Assembly: GCA_030019215.1 (NCBI GenBank)
Contig: JASEEZ010000001.1
Location: forward strand, 103,876 to 167,875
Length of the DNA: 64,000 nucleotides
Direction of reading: 5' to 3'
Origin: Actinomycetota bacterium
Lineage (GTDB): Bacteria > Actinomycetota > Aquicultoria > Subteraquimicrobiales > UBA9087
A program made the translations under genes and the position numbers. Position 1 is the stretch's first letter. The number at the start of each line of letters is the position of its first letter. Shown piece after piece: positions 2,126-64,000 of the stretch. The notes beneath the pieces are model-generated. The model made no database searches, was not told the origin of the DNA, and saw only the letters and a program-made list of their open reading frames with translations.

Positions 2126-3610
2126 TTAATCGGCTCCCTTTCTCTCCCCAAAACAGTAAAAATGTCCGTTCCTGGCGCCCACAAATATCTTGCCTTTCCA
2201 GACCACGGGAGTAGACTCGATAACGGCCCCGCCTGGAATTCTTGCCTCCCACACTTCTTTCGGTTCCACCCGTGGGTTTTTCACATCGTAGGCCCGAACG
2301 TACCCCCCAGCATCGCAGGTGATTAAAACATCGTCCACGACCGCGGGCGAGCTCCAAAAATGCGGGGGAAACTCCTTCTTCCAGAGGACCTCCCCTGTCT
2401 TCGCATCAACTGCCAGCAGATCGCCTGGATTAGTGGGCACGAAAAGGACACCCCTATGCAAAGCGGGCGTGGCCCAAACGCCTCCTTTAGCCTTGCCCCT
2501 CGCCGGCACACTGATTGACCAGACGACTGGGTTCTCGGACTTTTCGGGATCGAGTTTAACCACCTGGCCCAACTCCAGCGCCCGCGAGAGACCTCTTTCA
2601 AGTTCGGCGCAGACGTAAAGCTTGCCCTCATCATCAATGACCACTGAGGCATCAACATCGTCCCCCATCCAGAATTCGAATCTGACCGGAAATTCCCCCC
2701 ACCCTTCCTTCAGGCCACCGATGTCGATCCCGTAGACCATGCCCCCGCCATTGGCAAAATAAACCGTATCGCCGAAAAGAGCAGGGGAGTTCTCGATGCT
2801 CACGTTGCGATCTCTAATCTTTCGAAAGAGGTCACGGTCAAAAGCGGGAAAGTCGAGGAGAATCTCCGGCTCGACCCCGACCTTGCCTTCAACGTCGTAT
2901 CCGCGGTTGAGCTTGATGATGAAAAAGTGGCTGTTCTCTCCCCCCTCGAAGAGATGGTCGTCGAGAATCAGTGGACAGCAGTCCCAGTCGTCATTCCAGA
3001 CCCTGTTTTTGACGGAATAGGCAGAGAGCTTCCAGAGCAAGGTGGGAGAATCGTGATCAAGGGCCACGATGCGGAAGTGGTTGTCGCGGGAGCCAAAATA
3101 GATCAGTGGATAGCCGTCGGGGTCAAAGGCCACCGAGCCCTTTATGATGTCACCGGTCTGAAAGGGCTTTAAAATGTCCTTTCCGGTTTCAGCATTCACA
3201 AAATGGACCGCTCCATCAAAAGCCCCAAAAATAACCCACGTCTTATCTTCCCACTCCACAATCACCGGCTGACCCGTCCAACCCGTGCCCGCCCAACGTT
3301 TCGTCTCGGTTTTCAACGAGGAAAGGGAGCTCATCGGTTCGCCTACTGGATAGCTCCAAAGGATCTCCGGACTTCGCGGGACGGGGCCTTGACCGTAAAA
3401 GGTGTTGGTCGAATTACCTCGGAACCTCAAAACACCCCTTACCGCCGGCGTTGTTTCTTCCCTCTCTTCTTTTTTGGCTGGAAAGGATTGGTCCCCCGCC
3501 GACGGCGGGGTCGTCTCCTCAATGACCTCGGGTTGAGAAGGTGGCTCCCGAGATGGTTTTTTGCTTTGAAAAGTAAAGGCAAGGAGAGAGAAGAGCAACG
3601 AAGACGACAA
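2126..3610 (-). CDS. PQQ-type beta-propeller repeat protein, likely membrane-anchored
   Basis: A 494-residue frame with a Pro/Glu-rich linker (about residues 15-55) and then repeated blades such as GKIFVGARNGHFYCFG and GVLFVPTNPGDLLAVDAKTGEVLW, typical of PQQ-like/YncE-type propellers that form extracytoplasmic scaffolds. The listed frame can start only at TTG 3610, which has no ribosome site. A GTG at 3644 has a good AAAGGAG site and reads VKNLKWICLGIFVVFVALL, an ideal membrane anchor, but it is in another frame; one base in the repeat-rich stretch 3581-3600 would join them. The true gene is therefore probably 2126-3644 with a frameshift. The GTG lies inside an 8-bp hairpin. Function unknown beyond the fold. 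Confidence 0.7.
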   Translation of the reverse strand: MSSSLLFSLLAFTFQSKKPSREPPSQPEVIEETTPPSAGDQSFPAKKEEREETTPAVRGVLRFRGNSTNTFYGQGPVPRSPEILWSYPVGEPMSSLSSLKTETKRWAGTGWTGQPVIVEWEDKTWVIFGAFDGAVHFVNAETGKDILKPFQTGDIIKGSVAFDPDGYPLIYFGSRDNHFRIVALDHDSPTLLWKLSAYSVKNRVWNDDWDCCPLILDDHLFEGGENSHFFIIKLNRGYDVEGKVGVEPEILLDFPAFDRDLFRKIRDRNVSIENSPALFGDTVYFANGGGMVYGIDIGGLKEGWGEFPVRFEFWMGDDVDASVVIDDEGKLYVCAELERGLSRALELGQVVKLDPEKSENPVVWSISVPARGKAKGGVWATPALHRGVLFVPTNPGDLLAVDAKTGEVLWKKEFPPHFWSSPAVVDDVLITCDAGGYVRAYDVKNPRVEPKEVWEARIPGGAVIESTPVVWKGKIFVGARNGHFYCFGERKGAD

Positions 3611-7211: not shown

Positions 7212-7248
7212 ATACAAATAAACCCCGCCATTGGCGGGGTTTATTTGT
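7212..7248 (-). terminator. Hairpin after tRNA-Arg
   Basis: ACAAATAAACCCCGCC pairs with the inverted GGCGGGGTTTATTTGT, a 16-bp stem right after the tRNA 3' end. The core CCCCGCC..GGCGGGG is one of the recurring palindromes of this window. The T-run is weak, so it may act in 3' processing or termination. Confidence 0.65.
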
Positions 7249-13932: not shown

Positions 13933-14397
13933 TTAACTCATGGTCTTCAAGAGATTCACCATCTCCATAGAGGACATGGCCGCCTGCCATCCCTTATTGC
14001 CAGATTTGGTGCCTGCCCGCTCCACCGCTTGTTCGATGGTGTCGGCGGTGATGATGCCAAAGGCAGTGGGCACGCCGGTATCCAGATTTATCTTGGCGAC
14101 TCCCTTGGCAGCCTCGCTACAGATGTACTCAAAGTGGGGTGTTCCTCCCCTCAATATCACCCCGAGGCAGATGAGGCCATCATATTTCTTGGACTCGGCC
14201 ATCTTCTTCGCCACCAGGGGCATTTCAAAGGAACCTGGAACCCAGGCGACATTGATGTTCTCCTCGGAAGCTTCGTGACGCCTGAGGGCATCCAGCGCTC
14301 CCTCCAAAAGTCTGGTGCTCAAGAACTCGTTGAATCGACTGACGACGATTCCAAACTTGAATCCCTTGGCGGTTAACTTTCCCTCATAAATCTTCAT
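13933..14397 (-). CDS. ribH: 6,7-dimethyl-8-ribityllumazine synthase
   Basis: A 154-residue lumazine synthase that joins the ribityl pyrimidine with 3,4-dihydroxybutanone 4-phosphate. The signature [14 protein letters not shown] and [21 protein letters not shown] (with the catalytic His) are present. It is the last gene of the riboflavin operon, 18 bases after ribBA, and would be under the FMN riboswitch upstream of ribD. Confidence 0.96.
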
Positions 14398-14415: not shown

Positions 14416-15636
14416 TTATGACTCCTCCCATTCCAGCAAATGGGCAAGTTTTTCCCTTTTCGCCCGCAAGTAATCGATATTTTGAGAAGTCGGCTTGACC
14501 TCCAATGGAACTCTCTCTACAACCTTCAAGCCATAGCCCTCCAATCCAACAATTTTTGCCGGATTATTGGTCATCAGACGCATCGATGACAGACCCAAGT
14601 CAACCAAAATCTGGGCTCCAATGCCGTAATCTCTGAGGTCGGCTGGGAAACCCAGTTCCTCATTGGCCTCTACCGTATCCCTCCCTTCCTCCTGTAATTC
14701 GTAGGCTCTAAGCTTATTCAGAAAACCGATACCCCTTCCTTCCTGACCCAAGATGTAGAGGAAAACCCCCTTTCCCTCCTCGGCAATTCTTTTCAAGGCC
14801 TCCTCAAGTTGCGTTCCACAGTCACACCGGAGGGAGTGAAAGACGTCCCCCGTCAAACATTCGGAGTGGACTCTGACCAGAACATTCCTCTTTCCCTTGA
14901 CTTCCCCCTTGATTAGAACGAGGTGATGCCTGCCATCCAAGATGCTTTCATATCCAACGGCCTTGAACTCTCCATAGGGAGTGGGGAGATCGACCTCGGC
15001 GACTCGTCTGACCAGCTTTTCAGTGCGCCGACGATAGCGAATCAGATCGGCCACGGTCATCATCTTGAGACCAAATCTCTTGGCCACCTTCTTCAGTTCA
15101 GGAACACGAGCCATCGTTCCATCTTCGTTCATGATTTCGCAGATAACACCCGCCTGGAAGAGACCGGCCTGCTTGGCCAGATCGATGGCGGCCTCCGTAT
15201 GTCCGGCCCGTTCCAAAACTCCCCCTTTCTTCGCCCTCAGGGGAAAAACGTGTCCGGGCATGGAAATGTCCTCGGGTTTGGTCTGGGAATCCACCACCGC
15301 TAAAATGGTGGCCGCTCGATCGTGAGCAGAAATCCCCGTGGTTATCTTGTGCTTGGCTCCAATGGAAACCGCGAAGGCCGTCTCATGCTCGGAGGTATTG
15401 GTGGAAACCATGACCGGTATTCTGAGCTCATCCAACCTCTCGGGGGAGCAGGGCATGCAAATGAGCCCCCTTCCATACTTGGACATGAAATTGATTGCTT
15501 CAGGGGTTACTTTCTCCGCAGCCATCACGAAGTCGCCCTCGTTTTCTCTGTCCTCATTGTCGACGACGATGACCATCCTCCCACATCTTATCTCTTCTAT
15601 TGCTTCCTCGATGGAGCTAAAAGGCACTACAACCAC
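14416..15636 (-). CDS. ribBA: Bifunctional DHBP synthase / GTP cyclohydrolase II
   Basis: A 406-residue fusion. Residues 1-205 are 3,4-dihydroxy-2-butanone 4-phosphate synthase ([16 protein letters not shown] acidic site, and [21 protein letters not shown]). Residues 206-406 are GTP cyclohydrolase II with Zn ligands in [15 protein letters not shown] and the GQEGRGIGF loop. Together they supply both precursors of lumazine. Three bases separate it from ribE, so the genes are probably translationally coupled. Confidence 0.96.
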
Positions 15637-15639
15637 CTC

Positions 15640-16281
15640 TTAAATGAAGCCGTGTTCTCGGAGTTTGCTTAAAGTCAAATTTGAGCTTACACCGCTCGCA
15701 GTCAAAATTTTTTCGACGTACTTGCCTATGATATCCACCTCTATATTGACCCTCGCTCCTTTATCCTTAAACCCCAGGGTTGTTACCTTCGCCGTATGGG
15801 GGATTATAAAGACCGTAAAAGCCAAGCTCAGAACATCAACAATGGTCAAACTTATTCCATCCACAGCCACGGACCCTTGGGGAACTAGATAGCGAGCAAT
15901 GTTGGGGGACATCTCTATCCTTAAAAGAATTGCGTTCCCCTTCCTGGCCCTACTCGAAATCCTCCCTACACCATCTGTATGTGCGGTGACCAGGTGTCCT
16001 CCAAGCCGATCAGAAAATCTCAACGCCCTTTCAAGATTAACCATGTCCCCGGCCTTCAGTTCGCCCAAGTTTGTCCTATCCAAAGTCTCGGGCATAACAT
16101 CCGCCTTGAAACAGCTACCCCGCCTGTCAACAACGGTTAAACAAACTCCATTGACGGCTATGGAGTCACCAACCTCTAGCGCTTCGGTCACCTTTGGGGC
16201 CAAAACCTGGAGCTCGCAAGCCCCCCCACTCCTTTTCAGGGCTTGAACTCCCCCAAGCTCTTCAATGATGCCCGTGAACAT
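15640..16281 (-). CDS. ribE: Riboflavin synthase, alpha subunit
   Basis: A 213-residue protein with two similar lumazine-binding barrels, beginning with the invariant MFTGIIEELG. It dismutates two lumazines to riboflavin. The ATG at 16281 is chosen because GAGGAGGG precedes it and MFTGIIEE is the family N-terminus; an in-frame TTG one codon earlier is less likely. Second gene of the rib operon. Confidence 0.95.
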   Translation of the reverse strand: MFTGIIEELGGVQALKRSGGACELQVLAPKVTEALEVGDSIAVNGVCLTVVDRRGSCFKADVMPETLDRTNLGELKAGDMVNLERALRFSDRLGGHLVTAHTDGVGRISSRARKGNAILLRIEMSPNIARYLVPQGSVAVDGISLTIVDVLSLAFTVFIIPHTAKVTTLGFKDKGARVNIEVDIIGKYVEKILTASGVSSNLTLSKLREHGFI

Positions 16282-16291
16282 CAAACCCTCC

Positions 16292-17398
16292 TCAACGATT
16301 TCCTATTGTCTCTGATCTTTTCGTCGGGTAGGCTTCGATCATCAAATCAGCGCCCACCCTTTCCACGCTGGCTATTTCAAAATCAGGATTTGAGGTGCAG
16401 TGATTCCATTCCATAAAATCCAGCGCTCCTTCTCCGATCAAAACCTTTGGAGCTATAAAAAATAGGAACTTGTCAACCAAACCCGCCTCGAGCATGGATG
16501 TGTTCAAGCACGCTCCACCCTCAAGAATCACGCTGCTTATCCTTCTCCTGCCCAGCTCGTCCATGAGCTCGAACAGATCAACCCCCGACACGTCGGGGGA
16601 ACCTAAAATGAGCACCTCTACACCCGCCGCTCGCAGAACCTCTGCGGTGTTTTCGGGAACTTCCCTGGTCGTTGCCAGGATCGTGGGCACCTGTCGCGCT
16701 GTCTTCACCACATTCGCTCCCAGGGGTATAGAAGCCCCGGTGCTCACAATGAGCCGAATGGGATTCTTCCCCTCCACCATCCTCACGGTAAGCTCCGGGT
16801 CATCCGCCAGAACAGTCCCGGATCCGACCATTACAGCATCAAACTGGCTCCTCAAACTATGAACCCTCGCTTGTGCCTCCTGGCCAGTTATAATCGTTCT
16901 TCGCCCCCTCTTCTCGGCTATCTTCCCATTCAAACTCATGGCGACCTTCATGAGCACAAATGGCCTTCCGGTGAGAACATACTTAATATAGACCTCATTT
17001 TGCTTCCTCACCTCACCCTCCAAAACCCCGCTCGCAACCTCTACTCCCGCTTTCTCAAGCTCCTCGATTCCCCTTCCGGAAACTTTCGGGTTGGGATCGA
17101 CCATTCCAATGATCGCCTCGGAGATGCCAGCCTCTATCAAGGCTTTTGTGCAGGGAGGTGTTCTTCCTTGAATGCAGCAGGGTTCAAGAGTTACATAAAG
17201 GTTAGCACCCCGCACATCTCCCGCATCCATCAAAGCATTGATCTCGGCATGGGGACCTCCTACCTTTTCGTGATAGCCCTCGCCGATGATTTCCCCATCC
17301 CTGACCAGCACAGCGCCGACAAGAGGATTGGGGTTGGTCTTTCCCCGACCACCCTCAGCCAATTCAATTGCCCTGCGCATAAATTTCTCGCAAATCAT
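16292..17398 (-). CDS. ribD: Bifunctional diaminohydroxyphosphoribosylaminopyrimidine deaminase / reductase
   Basis: A protein of 368 residues: zinc-dependent deaminase (GGPHAEINAL and VTLEPCCIQGRTPPC) then the NADPH-dependent reductase domain (MKVAMSLNGKIA, VILEGG). First gene of the rib operon. The ATG at 17398 opens the conserved MICEKFMRRAIELAEGG block; a TTG at 17416 is possible. Within the reductase, an 18-base perfect palindrome (16582-16599) encodes SPDVSG and is also found, with 26 bases identical, in the FMN riboswitch. A MITE-like element lies 36 bases upstream of the start. Confidence 0.95.
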   Translation of the reverse strand: MICEKFMRRAIELAEGGRGKTNPNPLVGAVLVRDGEIIGEGYHEKVGGPHAEINALMDAGDVRGANLYVTLEPCCIQGRTPPCTKALIEAGISEAIIGMVDPNPKVSGRGIEELEKAGVEVASGVLEGEVRKQNEVYIKYVLTGRPFVLMKVAMSLNGKIAEKRGRRTIITGQEAQARVHSLRSQFDAVMVGSGTVLADDPELTVRMVEGKNPIRLIVSTGASIPLGANVVKTARQVPTILATTREVPENTAEVLRAAGVEVLILGSPDVSGVDLFELMDELGRRRISSVILEGGACLNTSMLEAGLVDKFLFFIAPKVLIGEGALDFMEWNHCTSNPDFEIASVERVGADLMIEAYPTKRSETIGNR

Positions 17399-17434
17399 GA
17401 CCCCAACCTCGCCCAATAGTTCAACGCCCCAAGT

Positions 17435-17673: not shown

Positions 17674-17719
17674 CAAAAAAAACAAAGGAAAAAGCTAAGG
17701 GAGGAAGTCCTTAGCTTTT
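17674..17719 (-). terminator. Riboswitch-controlled intrinsic terminator of the rib operon
   Basis: Stem AAAGCTAAGGA / TCCCTTAGCTTT followed by TTCCTTTGTTTTTTTT on the minus strand, 11 bases after the FMN aptamer. This is the expected off-state platform of a transcription-terminating riboswitch. Confidence 0.85.
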
Positions 17720-17730
17720 CGCCGGTTAAC

Positions 17731-17881
17731 TTTCTCCCATCCAGACTATACTGTCGGCTCTGGAACTTTCCCAGATCAACCCCCGACACGTCGGGGGCTC
17801 GCGGACTTTTCCTCGACTAATTCGGGATTCACCGCCGGTCAGGAATTCCCCCGATATATCGGGGGTCACCTTGCCCCGAAA
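17731..17881 (-). promoter_or_regulatory. FMN riboswitch (RFN element)
   Basis: Minus strand reads GGGGCAAGGTGA ... AATTCCTGACCGGCGGTG, AAAGTCCGCGAG, TTGATCTGG, TTCCAGAGCCGACAGTATAG and TCTGGATGGGAGAAAG, the conserved RFN blocks in order. It senses FMN and controls the rib operon through the terminator at 17674-17719. Odd point: an 18-base palindrome (17848-17865) splits the normally uninterrupted GGTGAAATTCC segment, and a second palindrome (17780-17797) fills the variable arm. Confidence 0.95.
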
Positions 17882-17951: not shown

Positions 17952-18650
17952 TCAACGGGAAATTGCTCTTCTCAAACCCCTGATCGCCTCCGCTATATCA
18001 AAATGATTAAAGACGGCGGAGCCAGCAACCAGTATATCTGCTCCCGCCTTCACTACATCCAGAGCATTCTCGGGGCAAATCCCGCCATCGACCTCGATCT
18101 CGACTGAAAGGTTTCGCTCTTTGATCATATCCCTCAAAAGACAGATTTTCTTCAATGACTGCGGAATGAACTCCTGTCCTCCAAAACCGGGGTTGACGGT
18201 CATCACAAGGGCAAAATCTATCTCGTCCAAGACGTTGGCCAGATTCGTCAAAGCGGTGGCTGGATTCAGGGCCACTCCCACCTTAACCCCGTCGTAGGAC
18301 TTAATCCTCTGAATGACCCGATGAAGATGCGTGCAGGCTTCGAGATGGACCGAAAGAAGATTTGCCCCGGCCCCGATGAAATCCTCGATGTAAAATTCGG
18401 GATTCGCGATCATCAAATGTACATCAAGGGGGAGCTTCGTACATCGCTTGACCGCAGAAACGACTAAGGGACCTACGGTAATATTGGGCACAAAGTGGCC
18501 ATCCATCACATCGACATGGATATAGTCCGCCCCGGCCTTCTCGGCCTTCTTTACCTGTTCGCACAGGGCTGTAAAATCGGCGGAAAGAATCGACGGAGCG
18601 ATCTTTGTCCCTCTTCGCCCCGCCGATGGCGGGGTAAATTTACGTTCCAC
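17952..18650 (-). CDS. rpe: Ribulose-phosphate 3-epimerase
   Basis: TIM-barrel epimerase of the pentose phosphate pathway interconverting ribulose-5-P and xylulose-5-P. Metal and active-site motifs are HVDVMDGHFVPNITVG, VHLM, VNPGFGGQ and EVDGGI. The family normally begins a few residues before IAPSILSADF. The frame stays open up to 18800, but the extra N-terminal stretch is encoded by stacked palindromes. GTG 18650 with AAGGGG upstream is a reasonable start and still adds TPPSAGRRG encoded by a CCCCGCC..GGCGGGG palindrome. Confidence 0.92.
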   Translation of the reverse strand: MERKFTPPSAGRRGTKIAPSILSADFTALCEQVKKAEKAGADYIHVDVMDGHFVPNITVGPLVVSAVKRCTKLPLDVHLMIANPEFYIEDFIGAGANLLSVHLEACTHLHRVIQRIKSYDGVKVGVALNPATALTNLANVLDEIDFALVMTVNPGFGGQEFIPQSLKKICLLRDMIKERNLSVEIEVDGGICPENALDVVKAGADILVAGSAVFNHFDIAEAIRGLRRAISR

Positions 18651-27605: not shown

Positions 27606-27825
27606 CCTCTCATCTCCCAGAAATTCTCTGCAGGAATTGGCACCTTGTAAAAACAGTCAATGCCCATCCGCCTAAAGCAGACTGCGAAATCAATCAACCG
27701 CTCGCTCAATGGTCAAAAGTCAATTATTTCCCTTTTGACCAAGCTGGAGGCTGATTAACTCTTGACTGATTTACAGGTTGCCGAGGCTTCATCGGGCCAG
27801 TCCCTCCACCTCTCCAGATAAGAGT
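27606..27825 (-). promoter_or_regulatory. SAM-I riboswitch (S box) upstream of metK
   Basis: Minus strand shows CTTATCTGGAGAGGTGGAGGG, ACTGGCCCGATGAAGCCTCG, GCAACC, then AAGGTGCCAATTCCTGCAG and GGGAGATGAGAG, the S-box blocks in order. The stretch between GCAACC and GGTGCCAATTCC is about 130 bases, much longer than usual, and carries its own hairpin (GGTCAAAAG..CTTTTGACC). Confidence 0.93.
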
Positions 27826-40217: not shown

Positions 40218-40237
40218 CCCCCGATGGACATCGGGGG
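40218..40237. repeat. CCCCCGA..TCGGGGG palindrome between pyrR and pyrB
   Basis: CCCCCGATGGACATCGGGGG, a perfect 8-bp stem with 4-base loop starting one base after the pyrR stop codon. It belongs to the same palindrome family as copies in ribD, the FMN riboswitch and 58808-58825. Confidence 0.75.
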
Positions 40238-40803: not shown

Positions 40804-40890
40804 TAAAAAAACGCCTCCTACGAGACGGCAAGAGGCATTTTGGTTTCGCATATTCTTTTCACTCTCCTTGCTAGCCTCACAGGACTAGAC
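40804..40890 (-). promoter_or_regulatory. PyrR-binding loop and attenuator of the pyr operon
   Basis: Minus strand AGTCCTGTGAGGCTAGCAAGG (40866-40886) matches the PyrR anti-antiterminator consensus (AGTCCAGAGAGGCTnGCAAGG). It is followed by a GCCTC..GAGGC stem (40813-40836) and seven T residues before pyrR. UMP-bound PyrR should favour termination. Confidence 0.92.
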
Positions 40891-40902
40891 TTAAAGGTTT
40901 TT

Positions 40903-58638: not shown

Positions 58639-58921
58639 CTTGCGCCAGTTTACAACATCGTGGATACTTAAGTTTCAGTTTTATTCTATTTTTAAAGTCT
58701 GGCTCAGGCCAAAGTTCCTCAAATTGACAGCGAACACTAGTTCGGATATACTATTTTTGGCTTCTCGGCCTTCGTAGCTACTTCGGCGAAGGAGGCTGGG
58801 TCATGAACCCCCGACATGTCGGGGGGGCGAGATATCGTGCCAATCAACCCCGTTAGAGATTTATCTCTAACGGGGTATACCGAATAACTGAAAGGGCAAA
58901 TACTGGAAAGAAGGGTAAAAA
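58639..58921. repeat. Intergenic region with two perfect palindromes
   Basis: CCCCCGACATGTCGGGGG at 58808-58825 and a second hairpin with arms CCCCGTTAGAGAT / ATCTCTAACGGGG at 58848-58875. The first belongs to the family seen in ribD and the FMN riboswitch. No gene seen. Confidence 0.6.
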
Positions 58922-63106: not shown

Positions 63107-63232
63107 TCAACCTCCCCATCGTGCTGTCGGATGACGGATGTCAGGAATAAAGAATGTAGAATGAAAAATGTTATTAGGAATTCGTTATTCACTACTTCGT
63201 TATTCGTTATTGGTTCTGGCTTTCCGAGTCCA
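63107..63232. repeat. Short repetitive spacer between lgt and the intron
   Basis: Repeats of GAATTCGTTATTC and TTCGTTATT words like those at 60993-61115. No gene. Confidence 0.5.
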
Positions 63233-63235
63233 GAG

Positions 63236-64000
63236 TAGGAGATGGAATTGCTTCCATCGTCCCCTGCCTCAAACCGTGCGTGCGGATTTCCCGCACACGG
63301 CTTCCCTATACCGTTGCCCCTTTGCAGGGAGCAAGTTCAGTTGGTTAGGGTAAAAAGTCTCATTCAAGGTAGCCAATCCCAAGGCCTCAAATTTCCAGTG
63401 CGGCATTTTAAGATGGGTTCTCAAACCCCATCTTTTCACCTTGTATGCCCTCAGCCTATTTTCTATCCAGCAGTCCAGTTCCCAAAATATCCTCTTAGAA
63501 TTGCCATATCTAAAGTAATTGCGCCATCCCCTTATTATGGGATTGAATTCCTTGATAATCTCTGACATCGATTTGGGCTGATTTCTACGGGTAAGTCTTC
63601 TTACCTTGTCCTTGAAGGTCTTTATGGCTCGCTTGCGGGGAACTTTATAGTCAGAATAACCAGAGCCAAAAAGATAGCCTAAGAATTCAAAGGTTTGCCT
63701 TTTATGAACTATCCTTGTCTTTTCTGTGTTAAGTTTAAGATTCAGCTTTCCTTCAAGGATTTCTCTTGTCTGGCTCAATGCCCTCTCTGCCTCTTTTCTG
63801 CTTCGACACATTATGAGGATGTCATCGGCATAGCGGACGGTCTTATAACCCGCCTGAGTCATCGCCTCATCGTAAGGATGAAGATAGATATTGGCCAGTA
63901 AGGGTGAGATAACCCCACCCTGAGGTGTGCCTGTAGTTTGATATTCTATCTTCATCTCCTCCATTACCCCGGACTCAAGGAATGAGCGTATCAGTCTTAG
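63236..64000 (-). mobile_element. Group II intron, 3' part
   Basis: On the minus strand, domain V is visible at 63271-63303 (AGCCGTGTGCGGGAAATCC then GCACGCACGGTTT), followed by a domain VI-like hairpin (GATGGAAGCAATTCCATC) and an end near CCTAC at about 63236. The maturase gene runs off the window edge, so the 5' part is not seen. Confidence 0.8.
63269..64000 (-). CDS. ltrA: Group II intron reverse transcriptase / maturase, C-terminal part
   Basis: Open to the window edge, 243 codons seen. Reverse transcriptase box TTGTPQGGVISPLLANIYL and the active site VRYADDILIM (Tyr-Ala-Asp-Asp), then the group II maturase X domain (RGWRNYFRYGNSKRIFWELDCWI) and end REAVCGKSARTV. The last codons are encoded by intron domain V, a known arrangement in some lineages. 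No HNH domain is present in the visible part. Confidence 0.92.
   Translation of the reverse strand, partial: LRLIRSFLESGVMEEMKIEYQTTGTPQGGVISPLLANIYLHPYDEAMTQAGYKTVRYADDILIMCRSRKEAERALSQTREILEGKLNLKLNTEKTRIVHKRQTFEFLGYLFGSGYSDYKVPRKRAIKTFKDKVRRLTRRNQPKSMSEIIKEFNPIIRGWRNYFRYGNSKRIFWELDCWIENRLRAYKVKRWGLRTHLKMPHWKFEALGLATLNETFYPNQLNLLPAKGQRYREAVCGKSARTV

Follow-up and report, generated by a model that had tools for sequence, protein, structure and literature searches.

In the solved structure of the FMN riboswitch aptamer both L2 and L5 are T-loops, and L2 contacts another loop (PMC3764141). Barrick and Breaker (2007; PMC2258182) describe that a base-paired helix sometimes interrupts the T-loops of this riboswitch. 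Dispersed palindromes have been described in other systems: the Rickettsia palindromic elements, 105-146 bp in length, are scattered over intergenic as well as intragenic positions and have been reported in tmRNA and RNase P RNA (PMC2229807), and the short palindromic repeats or repetitive hairpin-forming elements of organelles fall into several classes, mostly intergenic, with copies in rRNA genes (PMC2670323; PMC2800124).

The FMN riboswitch considered here shares with the helix-interrupted representatives of RF00050 (PMC2258182) the aptamer, the operon, the point of insertion and the hairpin-forming nature of the insert, but differs from them in that the inserted stem likely comes from a dispersed palindrome family, and in that L5 is without its usual T-loop. 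As with the Rickettsia elements, a dispersed palindrome is found inside genes including RNA genes (here ribD, RNase P RNA, raiA and T-boxes); however, the units are only 16-20 nt long with highly variable centers or loops, they seem to replace existing stems, and the in-frame coding insertion known from Rickettsia is not seen at the ribD copy, where one residue is added. We do not class them as Rickettsia palindromic elements because they are much shorter and similar only in behavior. The organelle repeats (PMC2670323; PMC2800124) are likewise short, hairpin-forming and of several classes, whereas the repeats described here reside in a bacterial chromosome and are enriched in the variable stems of regulatory RNAs. 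Our main reading, to which we assign a probability of roughly 0.7, is that of a working FMN riboswitch whose near-neutral L2 hairpin was taken from a genome-wide pool of palindromes subject to exchange. What deserves further attention is not the riboswitch, an ordinary one, but the proposed exchange of hairpins between RNAs.

The riboswitch lies on the minus strand of the window, by which we mean the whole 64-kb stretch of DNA analyzed, as a full-length match to RF00050 (17887..17725; model positions 1-138, 92.8 bits, E-value 2.4e-21, cmscan with a gathering cut-off of 66.2), and it is the only RF00050 match in the genome. Upstream is a gene for ribulose-phosphate 3-epimerase, and downstream on the same strand Pfam domains identify ribD (16292..17416, start codon uncertain; RibD_C and a cytidine deaminase domain), ribE for riboflavin synthase (15640..16284; Lum_binding in two stretches), ribBA (14416..15636; DHBP_synthase and GTP_cyclohydro2) and ribH for lumazine synthase (13933..14397; DMRL_synthase). 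The aptamer is followed by an intrinsic terminator with a 12-pair stem and a T-rich tail (17689..17720, minus strand). The 3′ side of P1, GGGAGAAAG (17730..17738, minus strand), is the likely antiterminator strand, and can pair with ACUUCCUCCC (17699..17708, minus strand), which spans the terminator loop and the start of its 3′ arm; the predicted energy of this duplex is -14.1 kcal/mol, and that of the leader cut before the remainder of the terminator 3′ arm is -19.1 kcal/mol. Prediction thus provides both the terminator (17720-17689) and a competing antiterminator pairing expected of an expression platform. The riboswitch would then be a working, transcription-terminating control of the ribD-E-BA-H operon: FMN would hold P1 closed and leave GGGAGAAAG unavailable to the terminator, transcription would stop and the operon would be off, while without FMN the antiterminator would form. 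We infer both the binding of FMN by the aptamer and this direction of switching, and it is very likely that this is a normal FMN riboswitch whose L2 insertion is of a known kind.

The first-pass annotation of this DNA had described a palindrome splitting the GGTGA|AATTCC segment and a second one in the variable arm, and had proposed an alignment with RF00050 as a check. Both palindromes are real. The first, CCCCCGATATATCGGGGG, is an exact 18-nt palindrome at 17848..17865 (minus strand), located in loop L2, where it separates UGA from AAUUCC in the P2 T-loop according to the sequence, the cmscan alignment and the fold of the leader; in the full-length RF00050 alignment it stands between GGUGA and AAUUCC. 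The 5′ half of the P2 T-loop, GGUGA (17866..17870), and the 3′ half with its stem, AAUUCC (17842..17847), are intact, both on the minus strand, and none of the conserved L2 bases has been lost to the hairpin. The second, CCCCCGACACGTCGGGGG at 17780..17797 (minus strand), belongs to what we call class 2 and is placed in P4 by sequence, cmscan and fold, with CCCCCGACGUGUCGGGGG occupying the P4 arm. Each of them is a hairpin in the minimum-energy structure predicted for the leader, and again in the centroid structure (z-score -3.5). The annotation was silent on the minus-strand orientation of the element and on further copies starting at 16582 (inside ribD), 40218 and 58808, and it missed that the hairpin is a member of a dispersed palindrome family and that the departure from the T-loop consensus is in L5, not L2.

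Within the window the pattern CCCCCGAN{0,12}TCGGGGG is matched five times, against 0.01 expected from shuffles. Pattern searches place class 2 palindromes at 40218..40237 and 58808..58825, and palindromes of a class 1 at 3494..3510 (CCCCGCCGACGGCGGGG), at 7223..7239 within a longer inverted repeat and at 18618..18634 within the upstream epimerase ORF. Over the 1.63-Mb genome class 2 (CCCCGAN(1-14)TCGGGG) has 56 copies and its reversed control 2, and class 1 (CCCCGCC-N(1-8)-GGCGGGG) has 76 copies with none in the control; the outer CCCCG/CGGGG pairs are common to both. Genomes of the same order hold 13-28 class 2 copies, and a 0.8-Mb genome of the same genus has 41 copies of class 1 (control 0). 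In 1.2 Mb of the genome under study, about 106 of the 247 GC-rich hairpins belong to one of the two classes, and only 15 of the 52 class 2 copies there fall in predicted coding sequence, which by the same rough criterion makes up 85% of the total. Longer repeats between tRNA genes at three loci of this genome also contain palindromes, CCCCGATTTCATCGGGG and GGGGGAAATCCTTCCCCC.

Structured RNAs are a frequent location of class 2. At least 13 of the 56 copies lie in variable stems of recognized RNAs: three in the raiA RNA (contig C1, 51634-51811), five in T-box leaders, two each in the FMN riboswitch and in RNase P RNA, and one at the tip of a c-di-GMP-I aptamer. All five T-box copies form stem III, the hairpin that immediately precedes the T-box sequence, and involve five of the seven T-box leaders in this genome, two of them below the Rfam gathering cut-off with E-values of 4e-20 and 3e-19. 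The RNase P RNA copies are located in P3 and P12 by the cmscan alignment, the P3 copy being the weakest of the 13 on account of its longer imperfect center in a helix that is GC-rich by consensus. Rfam RNAs cover about 0.7% of 140 kb picked regardless of palindromes and 1.2% of the window, so that fewer than one class 2 copy would be expected in them by chance. Given the copy numbers and this enrichment in RNAs, it is likely that the riboswitch hairpins derive from the dispersed family. A limited search of part of the literature returned no paper that describes such scattered palindromes in the stems of riboswitches or T-boxes.

The L2 and P4 hairpins could instead have evolved in place, their likeness to palindromes elsewhere reflecting no more than a genomic style of GC-rich hairpins such as terminators. 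L2 hairpins of unrelated sequence are indeed common, and some of the palindrome copies are terminators; however, terminator-like copies amount to only 9 of 52 in class 2 (1.2 Mb), the arms are shared far beyond what composition would give (56 copies of class 2 and 76 of class 1, where the reversed patterns give 2 and 0), and one and the same arm recurs in both FMN riboswitch stems, in three raiA stems and in five T-box stems. We regard an origin in place as unlikely. We favor the derivation from a pool of short palindromes, GC-rich and specific to this lineage (CCCCGA..TCGGGG and CCCCGCC..GGCGGGG), which would have supplied the sequence of the L2 hairpin, with whole hairpins being exchanged wherever a stem is tolerated, be it in variable RNA arms, terminators or intergenic repeats.

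Comparison of sister species bears on how such hairpins might move. The raiA RNA of the same-genus genome is nearly identical in its core to the one studied here, with arms CCCCGCCATCGGCGGG in two stems where our genome has CCCCCGACGAGTCGGGGG, and with CCCCGCC..GGCGGGG arms in the first variable stem, replacing CCCCCCGATGGACATCGGGGGG. Among four T-box stems compared, two are class 2 in our genome and class 1 in the relative, the bases being almost identical up to the hairpin and the DNA identity 88-91% over the loci of these two cleanly changed T-boxes; in a third the relative has a class 1 outer stem nested around a further palindrome, and the fourth has simply diverged. Class changes are also seen between repeats of our genome: the repeat TATCGAGTGA-hairpin-GAACGRGCTA encloses class 1 in three copies (one of them mismatched) and class 2 in three, these copies being found at L303 (3822 and 9472), L310 (3188), L320 (17388), L332 (17155) and L347 (16942). 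As a separate observation, a third short palindrome, similar to GCCTGTCTGCCGACAGGCAGGC, occupies different places in the same T-box leader of the two sister species.

The best reading of these patterns, which at the level of sequence comparison we place near even odds, would be that the hairpins move by exchange between copies. Its fuller form, for which we consider the chances for and against to be balanced, is that a lineage-specific set of GC-rich hairpin cassettes, 16-20 nt long, has spread in the chromosome and that its members have repeatedly been swapped, one hairpin for another, into peripheral stems of RNAs both essential and regulatory (the riboswitches for FMN and c-di-GMP, T-boxes, raiA RNA and RNase P RNA) through one-step conversion between repeats rather than through stepwise compensatory mutation. 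The sharing of the outer CCCCG/CGGGG pairs suggests, without proving it, a swap of the inner part by recombination between copies or by template switching, and the DNA process we favor is one of template switching or conversion between copies through these shared outer arms. The odds are not set higher because the FMN riboswitch is absent from the only same-genus genome, which is incomplete at 0.8 Mb, leaving a class change at L2 itself unseen, because no clean empty L2 site was found among relatives of the same order, and because the ribD copy is not an insertion. Exchange is directly testable, as orthologous RNAs of sister species differ by whole hairpins. If the pattern holds, it offers a concrete way for structured RNAs to gain and replace peripheral helices in a single step, and a caution against taking such paired changes for ordinary covariation.

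The copy inside ribD (16582..16599, minus strand) repeats the same 18 nt as the P4 copy together with 8 nt of shared flank, CAGATCAA. Transposition into ribD with an 18-nt footprint was considered and rejected, RibD being just one residue longer there than in relatives. The shared flank suggests a recombination tract between ribD and P4, but it can also be a coincidence, because GATCTG is present in the riboswitch of order relatives as well and the residues VDL are conserved in RibD.

That the hairpins represent a selected common site, either protein-binding or RNA-stabilizing and placed on many RNAs for their joint regulation, would fit the enrichment in structured RNAs, yet the loops are highly variable, the class changes between sister species and coding as well as intergenic DNA holds many copies, which makes this proposal very improbable.

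With respect to the response to FMN, the GGTGA|AATTCC segment had been taken as normally continuous by the first-pass annotation, and this does not hold: many natural RFN elements carry a hairpin at the same position. A scan of genome contigs with GGTGA-N(10-40)-AATTCC-NN-ACCGGCGGT gave at least 120 matches. Among the 120 listed, an L2 insertion was counted only if GGTGA was directly preceded by P1/J1-2 sequence; 39 were excluded for lacking it, many of them being chance occurrences of an upstream GGTGA. There remain at least 81 bona fide insertions at exactly the same point among the matches listed, and 80 of these 81 inserts fold into a hairpin whose closing pair is no more than 2 nt from either end (23% for shuffles). 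Judging from the record titles, the listed matches come from Bacillota, Chloroflexota, Spirochaetes, Verrucomicrobia, Lentisphaerae, Bacteroidota and others. Closer to our genome, 9 of 44 riboswitches from this genome and its relatives have at least 13 nt inserted in L2; the eight relatives concerned have inserts unrelated in sequence to CCCCCGATATATCGGGGG, and all three relatives from the same order have a longer, equally unrelated L2 stem of 61-62 nt, with an extra insert at the equivalent point of L5 as well. Interruption of the T-loop by a helix is, moreover, the published observation for this riboswitch (PMC2258182).

With hairpins so frequent at this point, the one described here does not lead us to expect an altered response to FMN. 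It would emerge from the P2 T-loop where insertions are known to occur (UGA|AA), with the flanking conserved bases kept, and because these are in place on both sides it would be a peripheral helix that should be near neutral for FMN binding. Between the two outcomes considered in the first-pass annotation, the tolerance of the hairpin by the aptamer probably stands, and nothing indicates an altered response. A disturbance of the L2-L6 contact that changes the affinity for FMN, as the loop-loop engagement of L2 in the solved aptamer (PMC3764141) might lead one to propose, is hardly to be expected when RFN elements at the head of operons frequently have insertions at this exact point, both across phyla and in relatives, and when the conserved bases are retained. 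Normal folding and function of the aptamer, despite the L2 hairpin, is the most likely case. For riboswitch annotation this hairpin matters little, being one more instance of a known, tolerated insertion.

The more unusual T-loop of this aptamer is L5. While L2 is kept and interrupted by a hairpin at a known point, P5/L5 (17759..17777, minus strand; GAUCUGGGAAAGUUCCAGA) is without the UGAAA-type T-loop that comparison with other loci reveals in most of those that could be read; a minority of the loci deviate as well. The missing L5 T-loop might weaken the aptamer, independently of L2. In relatives of the same order the L5 T-loop is interrupted by a short stem.

Three further RNA elements were recorded in the window, all on the minus strand. 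A SAM riboswitch (27607-27824; RF00162, 80.2 bits) contains about 119 unmodeled nucleotides in one arm where the consensus has 4, a very long peripheral insertion. A PyrR binding site (40804-40901) scores 55.4 bits, barely above the cut-off, and a group II intron match (63228-63305; RF00029, 48.8 bits) lies near the end of the window.
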